From: an uncultured Croceitalea sp.
Lineage (GTDB): Bacteria > Bacteroidota > Bacteroidia > Flavobacteriales > Flavobacteriaceae
Assembly (NCBI GenBank): GCA_947499565.1
Contig: CANMOV010000001.1
Span: forward strand, 558,001-622,000
Direction of reading: 5' to 3'
DNA length: 64,000 bases
The position numbers were made by a program, and so were the translations under genes. The notes beneath the pieces are model-generated. The model searched no databases and was not told where the DNA came from. It was given only the letters and a program-made list of their open reading frames with translations. Positions 39,786 to 50,551 of this stretch are shown piece by piece. Numbering within the stretch: position 1 is the stretch's first letter; each line of letters opens with the position of its first letter.

Positions 39786-41537
39786 TTGAATACCCGAGAA
39801 TTATTAACACAACTTTCAAGAATTGAAAACGGCTTAGAACAGTTTTCATTTGAGGAATTAAGTGCTTCTGAAGCATCTAATCTCAAAAAAACATTCTTAT
39901 CCTTCAAAAATGGATTAGAAAGTAAAGTTTTTGGCGAAAGAAATGCTGAAACTCTTATTGCTCTTGAAGACAAGCAACCTAAAAAACCAGAATCTCTAAC
40001 AGAAAGCTCATTAATTGCTAATGTTAGTCATGAGATTCGCACGCCACTTAATGGCATTGTTGGTTTTATAGATCTTTTAAAAGAAACTCAACTTTCTAAA
40101 GAGCAGCAAGAACTAGTAAATGCCCTTGGACTTGCTTCAAATAATTTAATGTCGATAATCAATGAATTGCTAGAATTTTCTAAACTATCAGCAGGAAAAG
40201 AAAGTTTCGCCTTCATTGAGTTTAATCTTAAAAACTTATTGAACGAACTAAGTTATTTAGCACAAACATTAATCGTTGATAAGAATATAAACTTCAACCT
40301 GAATATTGACAAAAATATTCCAGAGATTATTATTGGAGACCCATCTAAGTTATCGCAAATCTTGCTTAATCTTTTGGGTAATGCAGTGAAGTTTGTAGAA
40401 AAAGGAGAAATTAACTTCAATATAAGTTTAAAATCCATAAAGAAAAACGACATACGTTTAGGTTTTGAAATAAGTGACACAGGAATTGGGATAGCTCAGG
40501 ATAAACTTGGAAAAATCTTTGACTCCTATCAACAAGCAGAAATAGACACTCATATAAAATATGGCGGTTCTGGTCTTGGATTGAGTATTGTTAAGGAAAT
40601 TATTGAACAACTTGAAGGAGAAATTATAGTATCAAGTACTCTTGGGCAGGGAACAACATTTAAATTGGAAATACCATATCAAAAAACCACCCAAAAAGTA
40701 AAAAGGTCAAAGAAAATTAATAACAGCCAACCTAGTGATTCAAAGCCCTTAGCTGATATGAAAGTTTTGGTGTTTGAAGATAATCTTTTAAACCAAAAAC
40801 TAATTACAAGTCGTTTACAAAACTGGGGTTGTAAAACTATAGTTACAGATAATGGACTTTACGGTTTAAAAATTTTAAAAGACCATAAAATTGATGTTGT
40901 CTTAATGGACCTTAGAATGCCTAGCATGAATGGATTTGAAATTACAAAACGCATACGTAATAGTTCAAATAAATCTATAAAAGACATTACAATTATAGCA
41001 TTATCAGCGGACTTCAATGCATCAGATAAAGAACAGTTTAATGCTCTGGGCATGAACGACTTTATCCTTAAACCTTTTAAACCAGACAACTTACTCGATA
41101 AAATTGTTAACAGTAAAAATAGAAAGATGACGGAACGTGAAACTAAAACTGAAACCATGGAGCTAATTAGTAAGAATAATTTGACTGAAGAACTTAACCT
41201 AGAGCTAGTTTTAGAAGACTGCATGGGGCAAGTTGAGCTATTGGATGAGCTATTGCAGCTTTTTAAGAAGAATATTCTAGAGTTTGTTGGGAAAACAAAG
41301 GTGCATTTGTTAAACGATGATTTTGAGGGAGTAGCTTTTACAGCCCATAAAATTAAAAGTGGTTTAAGAATGTTTAAACTAAATAGCCTTATAGAAATAT
41401 GTGATCAAATGAGTTTGATTTGTAAGTCTGATAGAGATATAAAGCACCTTAATTTCCTTTATGAAGAGTTTTTAAAGGAATATGAGGTTATAGAACCAAA
41501 GATTGAATCAGAAATACAACGAATAAGAACAAAGTAA
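39786..41537 (+). CDS. Sensorless hybrid histidine kinase (HisKA-HATPase-REC-HPt)
   Basis: 583 residues. The start is TTG 39786: a stop lies six codons upstream in frame and the next Met is deep in the protein. Order: a short helical N-terminus (about 1-70) with no membrane segment or PAS domain; HisKA with 'SHEIRTPLNGIVGF' (His near 83); HATPase with 'LNLLGNAVKF', 'ISDTGIGI' and 'GGSGLGLSI'; receiver (about 320-440) with Asp in 'VVLMDLRMP'; and a C-terminal HPt domain with 'FTAHKIKSGLRMF'. This is a complete cytosolic phosphorelay. It heads the polysaccharide locus. Confidence 0.92.
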   Translation: MNTRELLTQLSRIENGLEQFSFEELSASEASNLKKTFLSFKNGLESKVFGERNAETLIALEDKQPKKPESLTESSLIANVSHEIRTPLNGIVGFIDLLKETQLSKEQQELVNALGLASNNLMSIINELLEFSKLSAGKESFAFIEFNLKNLLNELSYLAQTLIVDKNINFNLNIDKNIPEIIIGDPSKLSQILLNLLGNAVKFVEKGEINFNISLKSIKKNDIRLGFEISDTGIGIAQDKLGKIFDSYQQAEIDTHIKYGGSGLGLSIVKEIIEQLEGEIIVSSTLGQGTTFKLEIPYQKTTQKVKRSKKINNSQPSDSKPLADMKVLVFEDNLLNQKLITSRLQNWGCKTIVTDNGLYGLKILKDHKIDVVLMDLRMPSMNGFEITKRIRNSSNKSIKDITIIALSADFNASDKEQFNALGMNDFILKPFKPDNLLDKIVNSKNRKMTERETKTETMELISKNNLTEELNLELVLEDCMGQVELLDELLQLFKKNILEFVGKTKVHLLNDDFEGVAFTAHKIKSGLRMFKLNSLIEICDQMSLICKSDRDIKHLNFLYEEFLKEYEVIEPKIESEIQRIRTK

Positions 41538-41561
41538 CAATAACAAATCCCCCAAATCGCA

Positions 41562-41936
41562 TTGAAAAAACGACAAATCCTACTTGCTGAAGATGATGCC
41601 ATGCTGGCATCATTATTAAATTATCGTCTTGAAAAAGGTGGTTACGAGGTAATACTTAAAAATGATGGTAAGGAAGTAAAAACATGGTTAAATGAGTCCT
41701 TGCCAGATATTATAGTTAGTGATATTATGATGCCCTACTTTTCAGGCATTGAATTAGTAGACTATATTAGGAATGAGTTAAAATCCTCTATCCCAATTAT
41801 TCTTATATCATCAGCTTCAAATGAAGAAAATGTGTTGAGTGCCTTTGAAATGGGTGCAAATGACTTTATTTCTAAACCTGTTAGCCCTTCAGAATTATTA
41901 GTAAGGGTCTCTAGAGAAATTAGTAGAATGAATTGA
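41562..41936 (+). CDS. Single-domain response regulator
   Basis: 124 residues, receiver domain only: 'LLAEDDAML' (acidic pair), phospho-acceptor Asp in 'IIVSDIMMP', switch residue region 'LISSAS', and conserved Lys in 'FISKPVSPSEL'. The start must be TTG 41562, because an in-frame stop lies seven codons upstream and the next Met is inside the domain. With no output domain it must act by protein contact. The HEAT-repeat protein (its stop overlaps that start by four bases) or the upstream HPt are likely partners. Confidence 0.92.
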   Translation: MKKRQILLAEDDAMLASLLNYRLEKGGYEVILKNDGKEVKTWLNESLPDIIVSDIMMPYFSGIELVDYIRNELKSSIPIILISSASNEENVLSAFEMGANDFISKPVSPSELLVRVSREISRMN

Positions 41937-44152
41937 ATATAGAACTGCCAACATATAAAATTTTGTTTTTAGTTAACTCCACAACTGCTGATACAAGTAT
42001 ACTGTGGAACTTGACCTACCTCTTTTTGGGGCTAGGTTTTCTGTACTTTGTTTTCATTTTATTTATTAAAAACAGATTATCAAGAAAAGCAATAAAGACG
42101 GCAAGTAAAAGATCAGAACTAGCACCAATAATAAGCAACTTCTTATTTCATTCTGTAGAAGATACAAAGGATGAACAAAAGGAATATGTGCAATTAAAAA
42201 TTGAAATAAGGGAATACCTTAGAGATAGTGAATTTAGAAAAATACTATCCGAAATACTTTTTGATCTCCAAAAAGACGTTTCCGGAACTACAGAGAAAAG
42301 ACTTTTTAAACTTTATCGAGAACTAGATTTACATCATGACGCTTTTTTAAAACTTAAAAGTTGGAGGTGGGAAGTAGTATCACAGGGCATTATAGAGCTT
42401 ACTCAGATGCAGGTAAGCGAGTCATACCAGTTAATTACCAAATTTGTTAATGACAAGCGTGGTACAATACGTAAGCAAGCAGAAATAGCTGCTATAAAAT
42501 TACGTAATGAAGGAATTGAGCATATTCTAGATTCAACAAGATATGCTATAAGTGAATGGCAACAGCTTAAGATGATAGAAGCTTTAGTGAGCCTCAAAAA
42601 TTATAAGCCACCAAGATTTAAGTCTTGGCTAATTTCAGAAAATAAAGATGTAGTGCTATTTGCGTTAAGGTTAATAAAACACTACAACCAAAATGATGCT
42701 GTAGCATCTATAACACAATTAGTTAAGCATAAAAGTGATCAAATAAGACTGGCGGCAATCCAGTGTATAAAGGACTTTAATTTTGTAGAAGCTAAGACTA
42801 CTTTACGATCAGTCTTTGTGAATTGTTCCGATGAAGTTAAAATACAAATACTAGGGGCAATTGCACTTTTTGGAGATGAATCTGATATTCCTTTTTTAAA
42901 TGGAATAGCGGTAAAAGAAAGCAACTTTTTAATTAGTAGTAAAGCCAGAAGTGCTATTAATAGTATTGCACCTGGTACAGTATTACCAACAAAAGGCATC
43001 ACTAAAACTAAAACATCTGGTATAGAACTAGAGATTCCACTAGGAAAGAAAGAGAAACCTGCAATAAATCCTACTGAAGAAACTACCACAATTTCAATTA
43101 CAGATGAATATTTGGAGATAGCAACTAGGGACGATACGGAAATTTTAGAGATTGATGATGTAGAACTGGTTGTAGAAGATAATAAAGAAGTAGAAAAAGA
43201 TGAAGTAATTTCGGAAGAAACAAGTTTTGATTTTGAGGAAATGGATGTGGATACTAATTCATCTATAGACAAAGAACTTGGCCTATTAGCATCTGAGAAT
43301 GATGACCTTATGGATAAGAATCCTGTTGTGGAGAATATTGAGGATGAATACGTAAAAATGGATTTAGAACAAAAAGATGCGTATTTGGATAAGATAGATG
43401 AGAACATAGACTCCAACCAGGTTGAACTGCTTGAAATGATTATGGAGCGAGAGGATGAATCTGAATTACGTTTTAGAGCATTTAAAAAATTTAAACAACT
43501 TAAGACATTCTTTCCAGTAAAGGGAATTGTAGAAAAAGAACTGGAACAACCAGTAGAAGAGTCAGAAGCTGAAAGTCAACAAATAGTTGAGGAAAGTTTA
43601 GAACAAGTAATTGAACAACAAGTTTCTGAAATCGGAGAGGAACAGCAAAGTGTTTTTTACCAATTGTATCAGAAAGCAAATGACTTAGATTCAAAACTTA
43701 TTTTAATTGAACAAATAGAATCTATAGGGGATGAAAAAGAAATTGTTTTTCTAAAAACTTTATTGGACGCACAGAACTCAAAGATTGTAAAACATGCCAA
43801 AGCTACCATAGCTGCGCTGGAAAAAAGACTTTCTGGTACTTCCAAAGAAACTAGTGAGATTAAGTCCATAGATGATGATGCAGGCGTAGCTTTAAATTTA
43901 AATCCAAACGAACTTGATATAGAAAGTTATGAAAAGATTGAGTCTACTGAATTGAACATATCTTTTGAAATAGCTGATGATACTGAAAATAACGAAGAAA
44001 AAAAAGACAATAAATTACCCCTAGAGTTATGTTTTTTATATGATGAGTTAGGCATTAATGCTTCTGAAGAAAAAGATGATGATTTTGACTTTGAACTTTC
44101 GGAAGAATTTTTTTTGAATTTAAAGAACCAAAAAGAGAGATATGAGCACTAG
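41933..44152 (+). CDS. Membrane-anchored HEAT-repeat protein with acidic tail
   Basis: 739 residues, start TTG 41933 (in-frame stop three codons upstream, no Met nearby). A membrane helix (about 24-44) precedes a helical region. HEAT-like repeats cover about 150-330 ('KRGTIRKQAEIAAIKLRNEGI', 'KHKSDQIRLAAIQCIKDFNFVEAK'). A long, strongly acidic low-complexity region follows (about 370-600, rich in Glu/Asp) with another helical stretch (about 590-640). It overlaps the glycosyltransferase gene by 11 bases. A scaffold role linking regulator and synthase is plausible but inferred. Confidence 0.8.
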   Translation: MNIELPTYKILFLVNSTTADTSILWNLTYLFLGLGFLYFVFILFIKNRLSRKAIKTASKRSELAPIISNFLFHSVEDTKDEQKEYVQLKIEIREYLRDSEFRKILSEILFDLQKDVSGTTEKRLFKLYRELDLHHDAFLKLKSWRWEVVSQGIIELTQMQVSESYQLITKFVNDKRGTIRKQAEIAAIKLRNEGIEHILDSTRYAISEWQQLKMIEALVSLKNYKPPRFKSWLISENKDVVLFALRLIKHYNQNDAVASITQLVKHKSDQIRLAAIQCIKDFNFVEAKTTLRSVFVNCSDEVKIQILGAIALFGDESDIPFLNGIAVKESNFLISSKARSAINSIAPGTVLPTKGITKTKTSGIELEIPLGKKEKPAINPTEETTTISITDEYLEIATRDDTEILEIDDVELVVEDNKEVEKDEVISEETSFDFEEMDVDTNSSIDKELGLLASENDDLMDKNPVVENIEDEYVKMDLEQKDAYLDKIDENIDSNQVELLEMIMEREDESELRFRAFKKFKQLKTFFPVKGIVEKELEQPVEESEAESQQIVEESLEQVIEQQVSEIGEEQQSVFYQLYQKANDLDSKLILIEQIESIGDEKEIVFLKTLLDAQNSKIVKHAKATIAALEKRLSGTSKETSEIKSIDDDAGVALNLNPNELDIESYEKIESTELNISFEIADDTENNEEKKDNKLPLELCFLYDELGINASEEKDDDFDFELSEEFFLNLKNQKERYEH

Positions 44153-45572
44153 CTTATTCGACATAGTTTTAGAGTATATAGATCTCATTTTCCTGCTGTT
44201 TAGCTCAATACTATTCTGCCTATTTGTATTTATGGGCTATTTCTCTACACGAAGTTCTATACATTACAAAAACAAAAATAGCTTTGGAGACTTATCTAAA
44301 GTTATGGCATCACCTATAGCGCCAAGCATAACAATTATAGCACCAGCATATAATGAAAGTTTAACCATTGTTGAAAATATTAGATCTCTATTGTCACTTA
44401 AGTATGTTAATTATGAGGTCATGGTAGTAAATGATGGTAGTAAAGATGATACGCTTCAAAAAATGATTGAAGCATATGATTTAATAAAAGTGCCTAGAGA
44501 AATAGACCCCAACTGGAAGTCAAAACCTATAAGAGGCGTGTATAAATCCAAACAACTATCCTTTTCAAAACTAACGGTTATTGATAAGGAGAATGGTGGA
44601 AAATCCGATGCTTTAAATACAGGGATTTTTCTGTCTGAAAATAGATATGTTGGTTGTATAGATGTTGATTGTCTGCTACGCCCAGATGCGTTATTGCATG
44701 TTGTAAAATCCTTTTCTCAAAGGACTAAGAAAAAAGTAATTGCAGTTGGGGGTGTAATTCGTGTTGCAAATTCTTGTACAATATCTGGGGGGACATTAGA
44801 GAAAGTTAAGCTACCCAAAAATTGGTTGGCAAGATTCCAACTGTTAGAATACACCCGTTCTTTTTTATTAGGTCGTATGGCATGGGGCCGCATTGATAGT
44901 TTATTAATTATTTCAGGTGCCTTTGGTTTTTTTGATAGGGAAATAGCAGTGGCTATTGATGGTTACGATACTGGAACAGTTGGAGAAGATATGGAAATGG
45001 TTTTTAGAATGAGGCGTTATATGCATGAACGTAAAGAACCCTATACCATTGAATATATACCAGATTCTTTATGCTGGACAGAGGTTCCAGAAGACTTAAA
45101 TATTTTGGTTAATCAAAGAGATAGATGGGCGAGAGGTAACTTAGAAACATTATACAAGCACAAGGACATGCTTTTTAATTCAAAGTTTGGAAGACTTGGT
45201 TTGATTAGCTATCCGTACTGGTTTTTTTATGAGTGGTTGGCACCTTTATTAGAGTTTTTTGGGTTTTTTACAATCATCTATTTTTGGTATTTAGGCATCA
45301 TAAATTGGAGTTTTTTTATAGCGCTTACTGCAGCCATTTATGTTTTTTCAATCACCTTTTCTTTTTATGCAATTCTTTGGGATGTATACACATACAATGA
45401 ATATAAAAAGACAAAAGATATTTTATTACTGATGTTATGCGCAATTATTGAACCATTTGTATTCCATCCAATATTAGTGTACTCAGCAGTTCGCGGTAAT
45501 TATAAAAAACTTTTTAGAGTTAAATCTGGATGGGGCTCACAAGTGCGAAAAGGTTTTGCAAAAGCAGCATAA
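44142..45572 (+). CDS. Processive family 2 glycosyltransferase (polysaccharide synthase)
   Basis: 476 residues. N-terminal membrane helix (about 12-32), cytosolic GT2 domain, and three or more C-terminal helices (about 350-435). Catalytic motifs of processive synthases are present: 'IIAPAYNES', 'VNDGSKDDT', DxD as 'CIDVDCLL', 'TVGEDMEMVFRMRR' (acceptor ED) and 'NQRDRWARG' (QxxRW). It resembles synthases of the PgaC/hyaluronan/YaiP kind that polymerise and extrude a polysaccharide across the inner membrane. The sugar cannot be read from sequence. Confidence 0.9.
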   Translation: MSTSLFDIVLEYIDLIFLLFSSILFCLFVFMGYFSTRSSIHYKNKNSFGDLSKVMASPIAPSITIIAPAYNESLTIVENIRSLLSLKYVNYEVMVVNDGSKDDTLQKMIEAYDLIKVPREIDPNWKSKPIRGVYKSKQLSFSKLTVIDKENGGKSDALNTGIFLSENRYVGCIDVDCLLRPDALLHVVKSFSQRTKKKVIAVGGVIRVANSCTISGGTLEKVKLPKNWLARFQLLEYTRSFLLGRMAWGRIDSLLIISGAFGFFDREIAVAIDGYDTGTVGEDMEMVFRMRRYMHERKEPYTIEYIPDSLCWTEVPEDLNILVNQRDRWARGNLETLYKHKDMLFNSKFGRLGLISYPYWFFYEWLAPLLEFFGFFTIIYFWYLGIINWSFFIALTAAIYVFSITFSFYAILWDVYTYNEYKKTKDILLLMLCAIIEPFVFHPILVYSAVRGNYKKLFRVKSGWGSQVRKGFAKAA

Positions 45573-45581
45573 AATTTTGAT

Positions 45582-47957
45582 ATGAATACAAGTTCGATAG
45601 AAAGATATACTTTAAAACAATATACCAGATTGATCATATCATTCTTTGGTACATTGTTATTACTATCCATATACCAATATACCACGCTTTACTTTAAGGG
45701 AGTAGTAGATACAATTTTAAGCGGAAGTTTCTTTATTGCGGTTGCACATCAACTGGGCTATGCGTCTATAATTGGGCTTATTCTAGTATTTCCTTTTAAT
45801 TTTTGGGAAAACCTAAGACCAAAATATGGGTTTAATTTAGTATTTGTTATTATTGCTTTTTTGCTCATTATTGAGGCTGCTCTTATAAGTTACTATTGTA
45901 CAGCTTTAGTGCCTTTAGGGTCAGATTTATTGGGGTACAGTTTTTCTGATATTAAAATGACAATTTCCAATTCTGGAGGAATATCTTTTCTGCCAATTTT
46001 GGGATTAATCCTAATAATTGGTGTGTATTTTGGTTTGTATAAAGTCACATCCAAGTATTACCATTATATAGGTAGAATGTATCCTTTTACAATAATTCTA
46101 TTTAGCTTTTTTATATCAACTTTATATTTAGACGGAAAACCCATTAATCAAAATAAAAGTCAGTATTTAGCTATAAACATCTACAATAGTTCAACTGAAG
46201 ATACTTCTTACAGCGCAGATTTAGAATATCCTCTAATTAAACCACAACCTGTTGAAAATCCTTTAGGAGATTTTTTTGATTTAAAAGAGGAGAAACCAAA
46301 TATTGTTTTCATAATTGTAGAAGGTCTAGGTAGGGATTTTGTCGGTGAGGGTGCAGAATTTGGTGGTTTCACTCCGTTCTTAGATTCATTAACCCAGAAA
46401 TCCTTGTATTGGGAAAATTGTTTAAGTACAACGGGAAGAACGTTTGGGGTATTACCAGGCTTATTAGGTTCATTACCCTTTGGAAAAAGCGGTTTTATGG
46501 AGCTAGAAGAATATCCAAATAAGCTTACTCTTTTTAGCATACTAAAAAATAACGGGTATCACACGTCTTTCTATCAAGGTACTAACAGTGCATTTGATGG
46601 TGTAGACAAATTTCTTCTGAGTGAGAATGTTGATTTTATTCTGGATATGCAAAGTTTTGGTAATGACTATAAAATGCAAGAAAAGAATGCTGAAGGTTCT
46701 ACTTGGGGCTATCCAGATAAAGAATTGTTCAAAAAGAGCATGAGCATAGATAGAAAAGCCAATACGAATAGGTTGGAAGTTTATATGACCATTAGCAATC
46801 ATGAACCTTTTATACCGCCTCGTCAGGATTTTTACGAAAAGCAAGTGGAAGAGTTTTTAGCTAGAAATACTTTTGATAGCAGGGTAGAAAAAATAATCAA
46901 AAAAAATGATAACATCTTCGCAACACTATTGTATACAGACAATGCTTTAAGCTATGTACTTGAAGAATATAAGAAACAACCTGACTATGACAATACTATT
47001 TTTATCATTACTGGAGACCACAGGTTAATTCCTATTCCGCAAAGAAATACTTTAAGCAGATTCCATGTCCCATTAATTATACACAGTCCTTTATTAAATA
47101 CAAGTAGAAAAATGAGTGCGATAACTTCTCATTTTGATGTGACACCGACATTATTATCTCTATTGGAAAATAACTATGAATTAAAAATGCCAAAGAAGGT
47201 AGCATGGATGGGTGAGACATTAGATACTAATATAGAATTTAGGTCAGAAAAAGATATTCCATTAATGCGTAACAAAAATGAGCTAAAAGAATATATAAGC
47301 GGAGAAAAAATATTTTCCGATGGTACAGTTTATCAAGTTGACGAAAATATGAACTTAGGAAGTTCTTTTGGAGGTGCCAAGCTAGAAAGTAAGGTAAAAG
47401 CATTTAAATCATTGAATGCCTATGTAACTAATAATAATAAGATTATACCAGATAGTTTAGCAATATTCACAGTTAAAAAAGAGAAGTTTAGTGAAAGTGA
47501 AATGATTTGGTTTAATAGTCTTTATAATGGTTATAATTCTGACAAGTATTATATCATAGCCAGAGATTTAGCATTTAAAAAAGAATACGATAAATCTTTA
47601 CTGTTATGTCGTTATATCCTTTCTGAAAAAGCGCGTCATGTAGATACAAAGATTTTAATGGGTAGAATAAATGCTTGGAGGGGAAATTCTGAAACTGCCA
47701 TTGAAATATTGAAGGAATGTATAAAAGTGAATCCCGATTATGTAGACTCTTATTCCGCATTATTTGATGTGTATTTCTGGAATAAACGCAATCGTGAGGC
47801 ATTAGAATTAATAGACTTGGTAGAAAGTAATAGTTCTAGCGTAAATATTGTTGCTGATAAAATTGCAAGAGCTAGAAGAGAGGCCAGAAAAGCTGGGGTT
47901 AAAGTCTATAAGAAACCTGATTCCCAAAAAGTAGTAGCGACTTTAGATAATGATTAG
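45582..47957 (+). CDS. LtaS/sulfatase-fold membrane phosphotransferase with C-terminal TPRs
   Basis: 791 residues. Five N-terminal membrane helices (to about 200) precede an alkaline-phosphatase-superfamily domain as in lipoteichoic acid synthases and phosphoglycerol or phosphoethanolamine transferases: 'IVFIIVEGLGRDFVG', Thr nucleophile candidate in 'CLSTTGRTFGVLPGLLGSLP', metal ligands in 'FIITGDHRLIP' and 'TSHFDVTPTLLSLL'. A TPR-like region (about 690-770) closes the protein. In this locus it may attach a phospho-substituent to the polymer in the periplasm. The substrate is inferred; the fold is clear. Confidence 0.85.
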   Translation: MNTSSIERYTLKQYTRLIISFFGTLLLLSIYQYTTLYFKGVVDTILSGSFFIAVAHQLGYASIIGLILVFPFNFWENLRPKYGFNLVFVIIAFLLIIEAALISYYCTALVPLGSDLLGYSFSDIKMTISNSGGISFLPILGLILIIGVYFGLYKVTSKYYHYIGRMYPFTIILFSFFISTLYLDGKPINQNKSQYLAINIYNSSTEDTSYSADLEYPLIKPQPVENPLGDFFDLKEEKPNIVFIIVEGLGRDFVGEGAEFGGFTPFLDSLTQKSLYWENCLSTTGRTFGVLPGLLGSLPFGKSGFMELEEYPNKLTLFSILKNNGYHTSFYQGTNSAFDGVDKFLLSENVDFILDMQSFGNDYKMQEKNAEGSTWGYPDKELFKKSMSIDRKANTNRLEVYMTISNHEPFIPPRQDFYEKQVEEFLARNTFDSRVEKIIKKNDNIFATLLYTDNALSYVLEEYKKQPDYDNTIFIITGDHRLIPIPQRNTLSRFHVPLIIHSPLLNTSRKMSAITSHFDVTPTLLSLLENNYELKMPKKVAWMGETLDTNIEFRSEKDIPLMRNKNELKEYISGEKIFSDGTVYQVDENMNLGSSFGGAKLESKVKAFKSLNAYVTNNNKIIPDSLAIFTVKKEKFSESEMIWFNSLYNGYNSDKYYIIARDLAFKKEYDKSLLLCRYILSEKARHVDTKILMGRINAWRGNSETAIEILKECIKVNPDYVDSYSALFDVYFWNKRNREALELIDLVESNSSSVNIVADKIARARREARKAGVKVYKKPDSQKVVATLDND

Positions 47958-49245
47958 TTTTCGAAATATATGCAGCATGAGTTTTATGATACTATCCTTT
48001 GCAGGATGGGGTCAGGATACTGCCTATAATGAACTAGCAGAAGGTTCCTATGAACAGGCTTACCAAATGGCATATAATGGTAAACACAAGCTTGCAAAGA
48101 ACATGTTGGTGAGCATAACAGCCAAAACTCCTAAGGATTTAAAAGCTAAAGCTTTACTCGCTAAAACCTATACTTGGGTAAGACAATATAAAAAAGCTCG
48201 CATAGAATTTAATCAACTATTAACTAAAGAACGCAATAACAAACAATACTGGATTTCGGCAATAAAAAATGAATTGTATGCGGGTGAAAATGCAACTGCC
48301 TTAGGGCTTGCTAATAAAGCATTGTTTTATAAAAACGAAGATAGCGAGCTATTACGTTTAAAAAAACTAGCAGAAGAGCGTATTGAAAATAGGGTATACC
48401 CAGAGTTGGGATGGTTTAATACGGATCAAAAAATATCAAAAAAACTCAAAGAACAAAAGAGTAAAGAAAAAGAAGTTAAGACCGAAACTACAGAAGCTAA
48501 GAAAGAAGCATTTTCTGGCAGTAATTTTGGAATTAATAATTCTTATACTTTCTTTAGTGAACGGTATGACCCAATCTTCTTTTCAAGTATTTCCTATAAG
48601 CATCAAACAAAAATTGGAAGTATTATTCCAAAAATCAATTTAAATAATCGTTCTGGAAACAGTGGTGTACAATTTGAAGTAGATATGTATCCAAAGTTCT
48701 TAAAACGTTTTTATGCTTATTTAAGTTATGGTTATTCCAATGCAACTATATATCCTTCTCATAAAGCAAGTGGTGATATATATGCAAGCTTACCTGGGGC
48801 ATTTGAATTTTCCGCAGGGGGAAGATATATAGTAACGCAAACCCAAAATATTACTGCAATTACAAACTCTATTGGTCACTACCGCGGCAACTATTACTTT
48901 TCACTACGTTCTTTTATTAACCCTAGACCAGGAAATCTTACCAGAATTTCTGCCAATTTCTTAACCCGAAAGTATTTAAAAGATGCCGAGAATTACATGG
49001 GAATTAGTGTAGGACTTGGGTATTCACCGGAGCTTAGACAAATTGTAGCTGGTGATACTTTATTGGCAGAAACCTTACTTTTTATAGAATCACAACGGCT
49101 AAGTCTGGAATACCAGTTTACAAGTAAGAACAATCAAAATATATATAAAGCTAGAGTAGGTGTTAGGAGGCAAGAACTTGCATTTGATTCTGGTAGTTTC
49201 TTTTGGGGTATAACCGCAGGTCTTAATTATAATGTGAAGTTATAG
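47950..49245 (+). CDS. YaiO-like outer-membrane beta-barrel protein with TPRs
   Basis: 431 residues. Signal peptide ('MISFRNICSMSFMILSFAGWGQ'). TPR-like repeats (about 30-135, 'EGSYEQAYQMAYNGKHKLAKNMLV', 'QYKKARIEFNQLL'), a lysine/glutamate linker (about 155-175), then a barrel ('FGINNSYTFFSERYDPIFFSSISYKHQ', 'FYAYLSYGYSNAT', ending 'FFWGITAGLNYNVKL') as in YaiO. TPR plus barrel mirrors exopolysaccharide export proteins such as PgaA. It overlaps the preceding gene by eight bases and is the last gene of the operon. Confidence 0.86.
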   Translation: MISFRNICSMSFMILSFAGWGQDTAYNELAEGSYEQAYQMAYNGKHKLAKNMLVSITAKTPKDLKAKALLAKTYTWVRQYKKARIEFNQLLTKERNNKQYWISAIKNELYAGENATALGLANKALFYKNEDSELLRLKKLAEERIENRVYPELGWFNTDQKISKKLKEQKSKEKEVKTETTEAKKEAFSGSNFGINNSYTFFSERYDPIFFSSISYKHQTKIGSIIPKINLNNRSGNSGVQFEVDMYPKFLKRFYAYLSYGYSNATIYPSHKASGDIYASLPGAFEFSAGGRYIVTQTQNITAITNSIGHYRGNYYFSLRSFINPRPGNLTRISANFLTRKYLKDAENYMGISVGLGYSPELRQIVAGDTLLAETLLFIESQRLSLEYQFTSKNNQNIYKARVGVRRQELAFDSGSFFWGITAGLNYNVKL

Positions 49246-49252
49246 CTTTACC

Positions 49253-50551
49253 TTATTTTGAAGCCTCTTTTTTTTCTTCAGAATCAAAAGCCCATTTATC
49301 TGCATACATACCATAAACAAGGCCTATTTCGTTCTCGTAAACATATTTTTCATCTTTACCAGCATCAAAATTTACATGGTAGACATATACTTTTATACCT
49401 GCATCGCGTAGTTTTACAAGCAATTTCTTTTCCCTCTTAATCATTCTTCTGGAAAGAGCTATATATTTAATATTATTAATTTTAAGAAAGTCTAATTTGT
49501 CACCTTTTATACCCATAAATGGTATTTGAGAGATCATAGCATTTAGGCCATAGCTTGCGGCTTCTTCCGCAGCCATTATACTAAACAATTCCATAATTAA
49601 TCTGTCCTTATCTACAAATGATTCTGCGAAAGCTATGGGATCATTCAACTTATCTGTAACTAGAGTCGCATCAGGATGAGCTTTGAACCAATCATTTATA
49701 CCATTTAAATCTAGAGTAGTATAATCACCATAGATTTTATGTTTCTTAAATTCTTCATGCGAAGGAGGTAGTTCACCTTTATAATCAGTAAATCTAGACC
49801 ACATTCCCCAGTCATGTGCTGCCACTAACTTTCCATCAGAGGTAGAAATAATATCAAGCTCAAAAAGACGAAACCCTTTAGCGTAACTTTCATCTAAGGC
49901 ATCTTTAGTATTTGTAGACTTAATGCCATTTACTTCACCACCAGCATGAGCTATATATCTATTAGTATTAGGTTCAAAGTTGTAAACTTCCTTTGGAAAG
50001 TAAATCTTTTCATCTTTAATTGTTTTGGGTACTTCAACTATTAAGTCAATTGAGGTGTCATCTAATAGTTCTACAATTTCTCCAGTAAGGTTATGCATTA
50101 TATATGCTTGCCTACTTTTTATTGTACTTAATGAAGACAGCCCTAATTTTCTTAGTGTTGTGGTATTATCTGATAGGCTTTTAGCTGCAGAATCATGACC
50201 TAATATTATGAATTTAGCTTTATTGATAAATAATTCTGTTACCATCATGGTCATCGCCATTGCTTCTTCTGTGCTGCCATGAGTATCATAGGTTCTATAT
50301 TCAAATTTTTCATTAGAATGAAAATGAACAATAGTTAATCCTCTATCAATTTGTTCTTTTAGACCATTTAGCGAAAAGTTACTCTTTTTCTTTGCATTAA
50401 AGCTATTACTTTGTAATACCAATAATCCCTTGGTTCCATTTTCTTCGTTAACTATATTATAGCTATTGGCATTAAGGCAAGTTATTGTAGTAAAAAAAAG
50501 TGCTATTAAGGTTACAAGTCTAATTGAAGGTTTAATAGATGCTATTATCAT
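49253..50551 (-). CDS. Secreted GDPD-like phosphodiesterase with N-terminal ILEI/FAM3-like domain
   Basis: 432 residues. Signal peptide (about 1-28). The C-terminal half is a glycerophosphodiester phosphodiesterase-type TIM barrel: 'YIAHAGGEVNGIKSTNTKDALDESYAKGFRLFELDI' (His, Asn and Glu-x-Asp) and 'LVAAHDWGMW' (His-Asp), matching the HR(G)/ExD/HD metal and catalytic sites with AHAGG for the usual HRG. The N-terminal domain (about 65-165, 'GLTIVHFHSNEKFEYRTYDTHGSTEEA', 'FIILGHDSAAKSL') resembles the ILEI/FAM3 fold. It is convergent with the polysaccharide operon, seven bases away, and may trim glycerophosphate groups. Confidence 0.78.
   Translation of the reverse strand: MIIASIKPSIRLVTLIALFFTTITCLNANSYNIVNEENGTKGLLVLQSNSFNAKKKSNFSLNGLKEQIDRGLTIVHFHSNEKFEYRTYDTHGSTEEAMAMTMMVTELFINKAKFIILGHDSAAKSLSDNTTTLRKLGLSSLSTIKSRQAYIMHNLTGEIVELLDDTSIDLIVEVPKTIKDEKIYFPKEVYNFEPNTNRYIAHAGGEVNGIKSTNTKDALDESYAKGFRLFELDIISTSDGKLVAAHDWGMWSRFTDYKGELPPSHEEFKKHKIYGDYTTLDLNGINDWFKAHPDATLVTDKLNDPIAFAESFVDKDRLIMELFSIMAAEEAASYGLNAMISQIPFMGIKGDKLDFLKINNIKYIALSRRMIKREKKLLVKLRDAGIKVYVYHVNFDAGKDEKYVYENEIGLVYGMYADKWAFDSEEKKEASK

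Follow-up and report, generated by a model that had tools for sequence, protein, structure and literature searches.

How can a bacterium which seems to lack cyclic di-GMP (c-di-GMP) control the production of a matrix polysaccharide after transcription, and with which group might the growing chain be decorated? These questions are raised by seven genes at positions 39786 to 50551 of a 64,000 nucleotide stretch of DNA (the window) from an uncultured Croceitalea sp. (assembly GCA_947499565.1, contig CANMOV010000001.1, positions 558,001 to 622,000). Six genes on the plus strand encode a hybrid histidine kinase, a lone receiver, a protein with a transmembrane segment and HEAT repeats (the HEAT protein), a processive synthase of glycosyltransferase family 2 (GT2), a protein of the LtaS type, and a protein combining tetratricopeptide repeats (TPR) with a YaiO outer membrane beta barrel, while a convergent seventh gene encodes a secreted enzyme resembling glycerophosphodiester phosphodiesterases (GDPD). 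Judged from the genes alone, the locus is probably, if by a modest degree, a phosphorelay-controlled machine for synthase-dependent exopolysaccharide production, its product being decorated by the LtaS-type protein. The larger point is the core of receiver, HEAT protein, and GT2 in a genome seemingly devoid of c-di-GMP. A sequence-only reading of the window had described six co-directional, tightly packed genes and a convergent GDPD-like gene, and the ORF listing together with Pfam and NCBIfam searches confirmed coordinates and domains, all seven open reading frames (ORFs) being reproduced base for base. Along the six plus strand genes a gap of 24 bp is followed by overlaps of 4 and 11 bp, a gap of 9 bp, and an overlap of 8 bp, and the stops of the convergent YaiO and GDPD genes lie 7 bp apart.

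Conservation of the Gene Set

The family was sampled with 149 Flavobacteriaceae genomes from 149 genera, including the genome of the window. LtaS-type matches were obtained in 81 of these at E <= 0.001 and in 33 at 300 bits or more, the weaker ones including other LtaS-like and sulfatase paralogues, and a scan of named genomes contributed 64 loci. From the 97 loci examined, six duplicates of the same contig stretch were dropped, leaving 76 loci in a near group and 15 in a far group; the closest relative by GT2 is another uncultured Croceitalea assembly (L064, 93% identity). The order receiver, HEAT, GT2, LtaS, YaiO on one strand was found in 66 of the 76 near loci and in 11 of the 15 far loci. 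Nine of the ten near exceptions are situated on cut contigs, and in the tenth (L066) the HEAT frame is in two pieces. As most near loci are flanked by the same two genes, encoding a dipeptidase upstream and an rpoD-like protein downstream, these are positional orthologues. The receiver stands apart from GT2 in L056, L132, and L133, and versions of the locus lacking LtaS occur at L128, L129, L131, L132, and L133.

The searches for LtaS, GT2, and GDPD were extended to 395 Bacteroidota genomes, where the best two or four first-look candidates per genome were scored, so that the counts are lower bounds. This LtaS type was present in at least 38 genomes (alignment query, E <= 1e-50) and the GT2 in at least 83 (alignment query, E <= 1e-90). 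By hand count, GT2 was located within about 6 kb of LtaS in 35 of the 38 LtaS genomes; no nearby GT2 was seen in G438, G227 (separate contigs), and G470 (far apart), nor at the second LtaS copy of G239. Fusions of GT2 and LtaS in a single ORF of 1135-1273 amino acids were seen in 11 of the 38 genomes (12 of 40 matches), which belong to four families (f1-f4), and all nine fusion frames inspected contained both domains. Such one-frame fusions speak for one common product. In 20 chosen Bacteroidota neighbourhoods the order of the genes was shuffled, with the receiver and YaiO each present in 17 and HEAT above threshold in 16.

The gene set is therefore conserved together when tested across Bacteroidota, and this co-occurrence supports the earlier proposal of one exopolysaccharide-type machine comprising synthase, periplasmic modifier, exporter, and phosphorelay. 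The proposal that the six genes form a unit held as far as conservation is concerned; the unit is not indivisible, since the pair of HEAT and GT2, usually with the receiver, makes up a wider core and LtaS has been lost repeatedly.

The Synthase Core within and beyond Bacteroidota

The synthase (476 amino acids, positions 44142 to 45572, plus strand) matches Glycos_transf_2 of Pfam, carries the motifs DVD at residue 174, GED at 281, and QRDRW at 325, and has a cluster of hydrophobic segments in its C-terminal part. Its nearest NCBIfam model is PgaC/IcaA with 141.5 bits against a cut-off of 422.3, and the CelA model gave 29.7 bits against 699. No PgaB/IcaB-type deacetylase domain was found by Pfam and NCBIfam among the seven genes, to which this search was confined. 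An amino-sugar chain as product is weakly indicated by the PgaC/IcaA model being nearest to the GT2, by a glmS neighbour in Halosolutus, and by the FAM3-like domain of the GDPD-like enzyme, both described below. A second GT2 match in another genome (G135:C1:162553-163698) contains four in-frame TAG codons and is apparently a decayed paralogue.

Directly upstream, the HEAT protein (739 amino acids, positions 41933 to 44152, plus strand) combines an N-terminal transmembrane segment at residues 22-49 with HEAT_2 matches in Pfam and a long acidic tail, residues 351-739 consisting to 27.5% of aspartate and glutamate. Distant relatives have a short form of transmembrane segment plus HEAT. The positive residues which follow the hydrophobic segment suggest that the HEAT part faces the cytoplasm, alongside the receiver and the catalytic part of GT2.

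A search of 72,556 plasmid records yielded the GT2 in 13 at E <= 1e-60. In 11 of these the annotation places a HEAT protein immediately upstream of GT2, and in the remaining two (Emticicia, and Paenibacillus, the latter record being unannotated) a HEAT model built here placed one at that position. A receiver is annotated near HEAT and GT2 in nine of the 13, namely in three Mesorhizobium records and in Emticicia, Haloarcula, Salinirubellus, Halosolutus, Erythrobacter, and Devosia; a model search of the unannotated Paenibacillus record gave no receiver match. Three plasmids of Mesorhizobium ciceri carry an ATP-binding (kinase-like) gene, two receivers, YaiO, HEAT, GT2, and Hpt, and on the Emticicia plasmid receiver, HEAT, GT2, YaiO, and LtaS are all present. 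In the three haloarchaea receiver, HEAT, and GT2 are annotated and YaiO is missing from the stretch shown, as expected for cells without an outer membrane. In Halosolutus the core is followed by a sugar-phosphate nucleotidyltransferase and by glmS, a hint of amino-sugar supply. On a Planococcus maritimus plasmid (L180) the pair of HEAT and GT2 is preceded by genes for DUF4956 and a CotH kinase, and a Qat anti-phage gene is a few genes away.

Taken together, HEAT and GT2 with a lone receiver may be proposed, tentatively and with somewhat less than an even chance, as a previously unnamed synthase class in which a phosphorelay would directly switch the enzyme via HEAT instead of c-di-GMP, and to which Bacteroidota would have added an LtaS-type head group transferase, frequently fused with the synthase, and some flavobacteria a glycan-binding GDPD editing the decoration. 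As part of the same tentative proposal the class would span Bacteroidota, Pseudomonadota, and haloarchaea and, without an annotated receiver, also Deinococcota and Bacillota.

Proposed Control by a Phosphorelay

The hybrid kinase at the head of the locus (583 amino acids, positions 39786 to 41537, plus strand) contains HisKA, HATPase_c, Response_reg (REC), and Hpt domains by Pfam, with His82 in HisKA, Asp375 in REC, and the Hpt box AHKIKSG at residue 520, and the hydrophobicity of its sequence revealed no hydrophobic segment. It is followed by the lone receiver (124 amino acids, positions 41562 to 41936, plus strand), in which Pfam recognised Response_reg only, with the box IVSDIMMP at residue 51 and no output domain. 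Among the 68 near loci with a readable kinase gene, the protein has 550 or more amino acids in 47 and fewer than 400 in 21. In 20 of the 21 short genes the Hpt end is retained and the kinase core is gone (L031, L067, and L038 are examples), and the kinase gene at L033 is broken up. The final step of the relay, from Hpt to receiver, therefore outlasts the kinase, and where the core is gone another kinase must feed the relay, if the relay works there.

In the genome of the window, which is 97% complete, no PilZ and no GGDEF domain was found, the positive controls being matched in five and eight of 14 genomes, respectively. The usual c-di-GMP switch thus seems to be unavailable, and the phosphorelay may take over its controlling role. 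For an output-less receiver that recurs beside HEAT and GT2 in several phyla, the best reading is a switch which would act by protein contact. In Erythrobacter a PilZ gene is found not far from the core of receiver, HEAT, and GT2, so control by phosphorelay and control of the PilZ type need not be mutually exclusive everywhere. In bacteria devoid of c-di-GMP, of which this flavobacterium seems to be one, the locus is a concrete candidate for the control of a matrix polysaccharide after transcription, and its core recurs in several phyla and archaea.

The LtaS-Type Protein

The LtaS-type protein (791 amino acids, positions 45582 to 47957, plus strand) begins with hydrophobic segments forming a transmembrane domain, continues with a catalytic domain of the LtaS/alkaline phosphatase fold (residues 234-530, positions 46281 to 47171), and ends with a TPR part (about residues 641-760, positions 47502 to 47861). 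Pfam gave a Sulfatase match of 117.8 bits and a weak TPR match, and the best NCBIfam models were LtaS with 58.2 bits (cut-off 970) and OpgB with 48.5 (572) and 39.3 (574). In a Foldseek search with an AlphaFold model of low confidence (pLDDT 58), the top six matches were LtaS chains, followed by sulfatases, with YejM/PbgA among the matches. Sequence matches in the PDB were headed by VP1736, an uncharacterised relative, with Bacillus subtilis LtaS third behind a sulfatase, and second when a profile was used. A true sulfatase is not favoured, as the nucleophile position is occupied by threonine or serine and LtaS heads the fold list, sulfatases following in both lists.

Eleven positions of the LtaS domain were tracked through the 97 loci and the 20 loci of the phylum sample. 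Position 335 proved free to vary, and H495 and D519 were singly altered in L086, L114, L122, L156, L159, L160, and L162. The remaining set of eight residues (E247, R286, T/S287, W375, D379, H407, D479, and H480) is kept, where readable, throughout the 97 loci with the exception of L038, L039-L046, L057, and L063, and in 18 of the 20 phylum-sample loci, the exceptions L165 and L166 both being near-group. E247, T287, H407, D479, and H480 presumably correspond, as read from the motifs, to the nucleophile and metal residues of LtaS.

Fourteen loci have no working LtaS site. Twelve of them encode full-length proteins in which metal, histidine, or nucleophile residues are substituted (dead sites), in L063 the entire catalytic domain is gone with the transmembrane and TPR parts left in a single frame, and in L128 the gene is absent at the same dipeptidase/rpoD site; transmembrane and TPR parts are usually retained. 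One of the dead sites, L166, belongs to the genus of the window itself. In trees from which loci with a GT2 shorter than 440 amino acids were left out, the minimum number of changes between live and dead state was five on a five-gene tree calculated by a quick method and six on the GT2 tree. The five-gene tree groups L040 with live loci, two of them GDPD-bearing (support 99), and places L166 among live GDPD-bearing loci (support 98 for the grouping that includes L032, 88 within it), while on the GT2 tree L166 falls among dead loci instead. Repeated loss of LtaS activity is therefore what we claim from these sequences, and no exact number, branches being long in places. An enzyme subunit would thus have lost catalysis more than once, with its frame usually kept.

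Among dead proteins, five pairs were compared and gave identities of 53-63% for the TPR part and 53-57% for the LtaS domain, TPR being ahead in four; among live proteins the LtaS domain was the more similar part in all five pairs compared. Cross-matches of hidden Markov models relate the TPR part to that of the YaiO protein, a result which generic likeness of TPRs could also give. The TPR part is absent from many distant live LtaS forms and from six of the nine inspected GT2-LtaS fusions. A second LtaS-TPR gene with an intact site, having no GT2 or YaiO nearby, was observed in L157 (G239 contig 41), where it is not far from an ORF of 1352 amino acids opening with a receiver domain.

The exporter candidate, of 431 amino acids (positions 47950 to 49245, plus strand), joins weakly matching TPRs to a barrel which belongs to the YaiO family, with 189.7 bits for PF19413 (cut-off 23.9) and 155.4 bits for TIGR04390 (cut-off 32). 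In relatives a conserved protein of about 390 amino acids with a hydrophobic N-terminus adjoins YaiO, GT2-LtaS, or HEAT genes (L060:11401-12588, L061, L062, L149, L150, L151, L156, L158, and L162), mostly where LtaS has no TPR. Its members are about 25-61% identical; Pfam was empty for the two members scanned, and for one member no convincing PDB match was obtained.

The Predicted Head Group

The genome of the window encodes a PssA-like enzyme, one unassigned CDP-alcohol phosphatidyltransferase, and Psd. For PgsA no match was found in this genome at E <= 1e-8, and both CDP-alcohol phosphatidyltransferases gave weak PgsA scores only. Within the family sample pgsA exceeded its cut-off in one of 149 genomes, with weaker matches in 36 more, so that phosphatidylglycerol may occur in the family. 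The polar lipid tables of Flagellimonas give phosphatidylethanolamine and not phosphatidylglycerol (PMC12323373), and for Bacteroides phosphatidylethanolamine with small amounts of phosphatidylglycerol is reported (PMC5167729). From the presence of PssA-like enzyme and Psd without PgsA, and from these lipid tables, phosphatidylethanolamine emerges as the likeliest donor and phosphoethanolamine as the likelier group, in our judgement roughly twice as probable as glycerophosphate. The glycerophosphate which had been suggested from the sequence alone is thus not supported. The second CDP-alcohol phosphatidyltransferase of this genome (C1, L145:1399-2163) is nearest to an archaetidylinositol phosphate synthase model, below its cut-off, and is a possible source of another phospholipid donor.

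The GDPD-Like Enzyme

The convergent gene (positions 49253 to 50551, minus strand) encodes a protein of 432 amino acids with a hydrophobic N-terminus read as signal peptide, a domain resembling FAM3, ILEI, and the POMGnT1 stem (residues 43-175, positions 50027 to 50425), and a GDPD barrel (about residues 195-420, positions 49292 to 49969). The PF03009 match of 31.3 bits (cut-off 23.6) spans 47 residues only, and the ILEI match, to a domain which the sequence-only reading had not mentioned, is below cut-off; among 28 relatives PF03009 was matched at E <= 0.01 in all and ILEI in 24. The barrel carries H202, E231, D233, H246, D300, and K301, of which H202, E231, D233, H246, and K301 are invariant in the 28 sequences and are taken as the GDPD catalytic residues. 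The arginine of the HRG motif of GDPD enzymes is replaced by A203 in the window and by alanine in at least 90% of the 28 sequences. A structural model (pLDDT 82) found GDPD folds from rank 2 on in Foldseek, behind the spike protein of a phage at an rmsd of 21.6.

The N-terminal half matched the N-terminal domain of POMGnT1 and FAM3B in Foldseek, and its profile gave weak matches to FAM3B, FAM3A, FAM3C, and cell-surface hyaluronidase (best E 0.0084). R70, D120, and R147 are invariant in the 28 sequences and face RG, HD, and R in the FAM3B alignment. In the stem of POMGnT1, beta-GlcNAc is reported to be bound by Arg129, Asp179, and Arg207, residues with conserved counterparts among the FAM3 members (PMC9802357), and by alignment R70, D120, and R147 would be the same trio. 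A glycan-binding phosphodiesterase of this kind fits a decorated polysaccharide as substrate.

Across the family and phylum samples no genome outside Flavobacteriaceae was found to carry the GDPD, which occurs in 16 of the 149 family genomes and in at least one of 395 Bacteroidota genomes, namely that of the window (E <= 1e-20). In four distant relatives (L138-L141) the domain is situated behind a transmembrane part and an OpgB-type transferase in a single frame, and a fifth (L143, 282 amino acids) stands alone; all five keep the catalytic residues, the aspartate after the second histidine being tyrosine in L140. As the model of the window's LtaS family gave no match to these OpgB-GDPD fusions, they represent a different branch of the superfamily. 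They are located at L138:676-3711, L139:6484-9429, L140:5975-8236, and L141:4871-7192 in other flavobacterial genera. In L138 and L139 the neighbour is a gene with domains of threonyl-tRNA synthetase; the L141 fusion forms part of a capsule-like cluster which also encodes a GNVR/AAA protein and has GT2-like genes.

The GDPD gene lies beside the exopolysaccharide locus in 47 of 58 live near loci which could be read through to rpoD, but nowhere among the 14 loci whose LtaS is dead or missing. Within the family sample, seven of eight near-group genomes with live LtaS have it anywhere in the genome, as against none of 12 with dead LtaS. The Fisher values of 4.3e-8 by locus and 1.0e-4 by genome carry no correction for kinship and are descriptive only. 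Thirteen dead loci entered the locus table, L128, L165, and L166 together with ten which had been read as far as rpoD; the window itself was not counted, nor was L063, which has no GDPD and has rpoD outside its stretch. The pairing of LtaS and GDPD proposed earlier is supported to some extent by this distribution and by the fusion of the domain to OpgB-type transferases in four genomes; that the GDPD-like enzyme removes the group is something which we infer.

Proposed Mechanism and Its Alternatives

Phosphate would pass from the cytoplasmic kinase via its REC and Hpt domains to the lone receiver which, having no DNA-binding part, would contact the membrane-anchored HEAT protein when phosphorylated. 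The HEAT protein would hold and gate the GT2, which would polymerise a glycan, probably one based on amino sugars, and extrude it. From its anchor next to GT2, the LtaS-type protein would move a phospholipid head group onto the emerging chain, phosphoethanolamine from phosphatidylethanolamine being likelier than glycerophosphate, and the chain would be handed via its TPR part to the TPR and barrel of the YaiO protein. The secreted GDPD-like enzyme would bind the glycan by its FAM3-like domain and trim or turn over the phosphodiester, and in some relatives the LtaS-type protein would be a scaffold without a working active site. Phosphorylated exopolysaccharides are thereby suggested as a feature of many Bacteroidota.

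Several observations weigh against this mechanism. GDPD enzymes are best known for their action on glycerophosphodiesters. The receiver is tied to HEAT and GT2 by conserved adjacency alone, it is absent at the locus in three of the 20 Bacteroidota neighbourhoods (L147, L157, and L161), and none is annotated in the plasmid records of Bacteroides, Deinococcus, and Planococcus; the HEAT model missed the annotated HEAT protein in seven of the 13 records, where the link consists of annotation and position. As to the head group, the PssA-like enzyme stays below its own cut-off (96.7 versus 107 bits), the best sequence models of the LtaS-type enzyme are glycerophosphate transferases, which speaks against phosphoethanolamine, and the poor structural model of this protein limits the worth of its fold search. 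The association of GDPD with live LtaS was not significant on independent pairs (three to six, on two trees), and the gene is absent at 11 of the 58 live near loci (L035 has it at another site in its genome). It is also lacking in 14 of the 15 genomes of the far group, where every site is live, and the one match there (G111) is an OpgB fusion at a different place in that genome. The GDPD is therefore not needed.

A transfer of glycerophosphate from phosphatidylglycerol, with the GDPD removing it, would agree with LtaS and OpgB as closest models, with LtaS as closest fold, with the GDPD fold itself, and with the fusion of the GDPD-like domain to OpgB-type phosphoglycerol transferases in four genomes. 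It is unlikely, though with an appreciable chance, since the two CDP-alcohol phosphatidyltransferases of the genome are PssA-like and unassigned with weak PgsA scores only, pgsA is above cut-off in a single genome of the family sample, and the Flagellimonas tables list phosphatidylethanolamine but no phosphatidylglycerol. A different role for the LtaS-type protein, chiefly as scaffold or as a subunit for handover, with catalysis dispensable or an unrelated side function (for example in chain release or anchoring) rather than decorating the bulk polymer, is brought to mind by the 12 dead sites, the lost catalytic domain, and the lost gene, around which the rest of the operon stayed, by the TPR part being the more alike in four of five dead pairs, and by YejM/PbgA among the fold matches. 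Yet 18 of the 20 phylum-sample loci retain the whole catalytic set and the remaining two belong to the near group, the LtaS domain is the more alike in all five live pairs, and in many distant live forms and six of nine fusions the TPR part is missing so that catalysis is what stays there; this role is accordingly considered rather improbable.

With the phosphorelay, it might be that the receiver steers transcription or another process, kinase and receiver being merely co-transcribed with the synthase genes. Adjacency as the link to HEAT and GT2, the separation from GT2 at L056, L132, and L133, and the loss of the receiver at other loci would be in line with this view. It is nevertheless judged unlikely, because the receiver has no output domain and is annotated near HEAT and GT2 in nine of 13 plasmid records from several phyla and archaea, and neither a GGDEF nor a PilZ domain was found in the genome to take on control of the synthase. 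That the genes are chance neighbours without a common function is hardly conceivable in view of the conserved order and the one-frame fusions across families; chance was rejected, and nothing was found in favour of it.

Comparison with Known Systems

No paper on the unit of receiver, HEAT, GT2, LtaS, and YaiO, or on parts of it, was found by title or start of abstract in the open-access PMC literature, and the words Bacteroid, Flavobacter, YaiO, and HEAT are all missing from the accessible main text of a survey of synthase-dependent operons (PMC7112194).

The type II Bcs system of E. coli, which secretes phosphoethanolamine cellulose, and the window locus share a synthase, a head group transferase, and an outer membrane exporter. 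In the Bcs system, BcsG has an alkaline phosphatase fold and BcsC carries TPRs. The inner membrane synthase is reported to recruit the phosphoethanolamine transferase BcsG, and an outer membrane porin to export the product (PMC11470070). In contrast, no BcsA-type PilZ synthase or other Bcs subunit is present among the seven genes of the window, HEAT protein, receiver, and kinase would take the place of c-di-GMP, and the transferase resembles LtaS and OpgB, has a TPR part of its own, and is fused to GT2 in some genomes. With 29.7 of 699 bits for CelA and no PilZ in the genome, membership in Bcs was rejected. PgaA of the Pga/Ica systems is an exporter of TPR plus barrel, a logic found again in the window, where the GT2 is also nearest to the PgaC/IcaA model. 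The differences are a score of 141 of 422 bits, the lack of a deacetylase domain in the seven genes, and the apparent absence of c-di-GMP; as the score is below cut-off and parts are missing, membership was rejected here as well.

In the E. coli stretch yaiO-yaiX-yaiP-yaiS, YaiO is found beside GT2, putative acyltransferase, and deacetylase genes, but HEAT, receiver, kinase, and LtaS genes are absent from the stretch shown, and with 257 codons E. coli YaiO is much shorter than the TPR-YaiO protein of the window. OpgB/MdoB and LtaS share with the window protein the fold and, by alignment, the presumed threonine nucleophile and metal residues; the window protein differs in being far below the family cut-offs, in its TPR extension, and in its GT2 operon or fusion. 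YejM/PbgA/LapC, a membrane protein of the LtaS fold which acts without catalysis, parallels the dead relatives of the window protein, which itself retains the catalytic set. The same core genes lie side by side, as annotated, on the Mesorhizobium ciceri plasmids and in the haloarchaeal loci, which differ from the window in that no LtaS is annotated, the archaeal stretches contain no YaiO, and HEAT kinship is given mostly by annotation.

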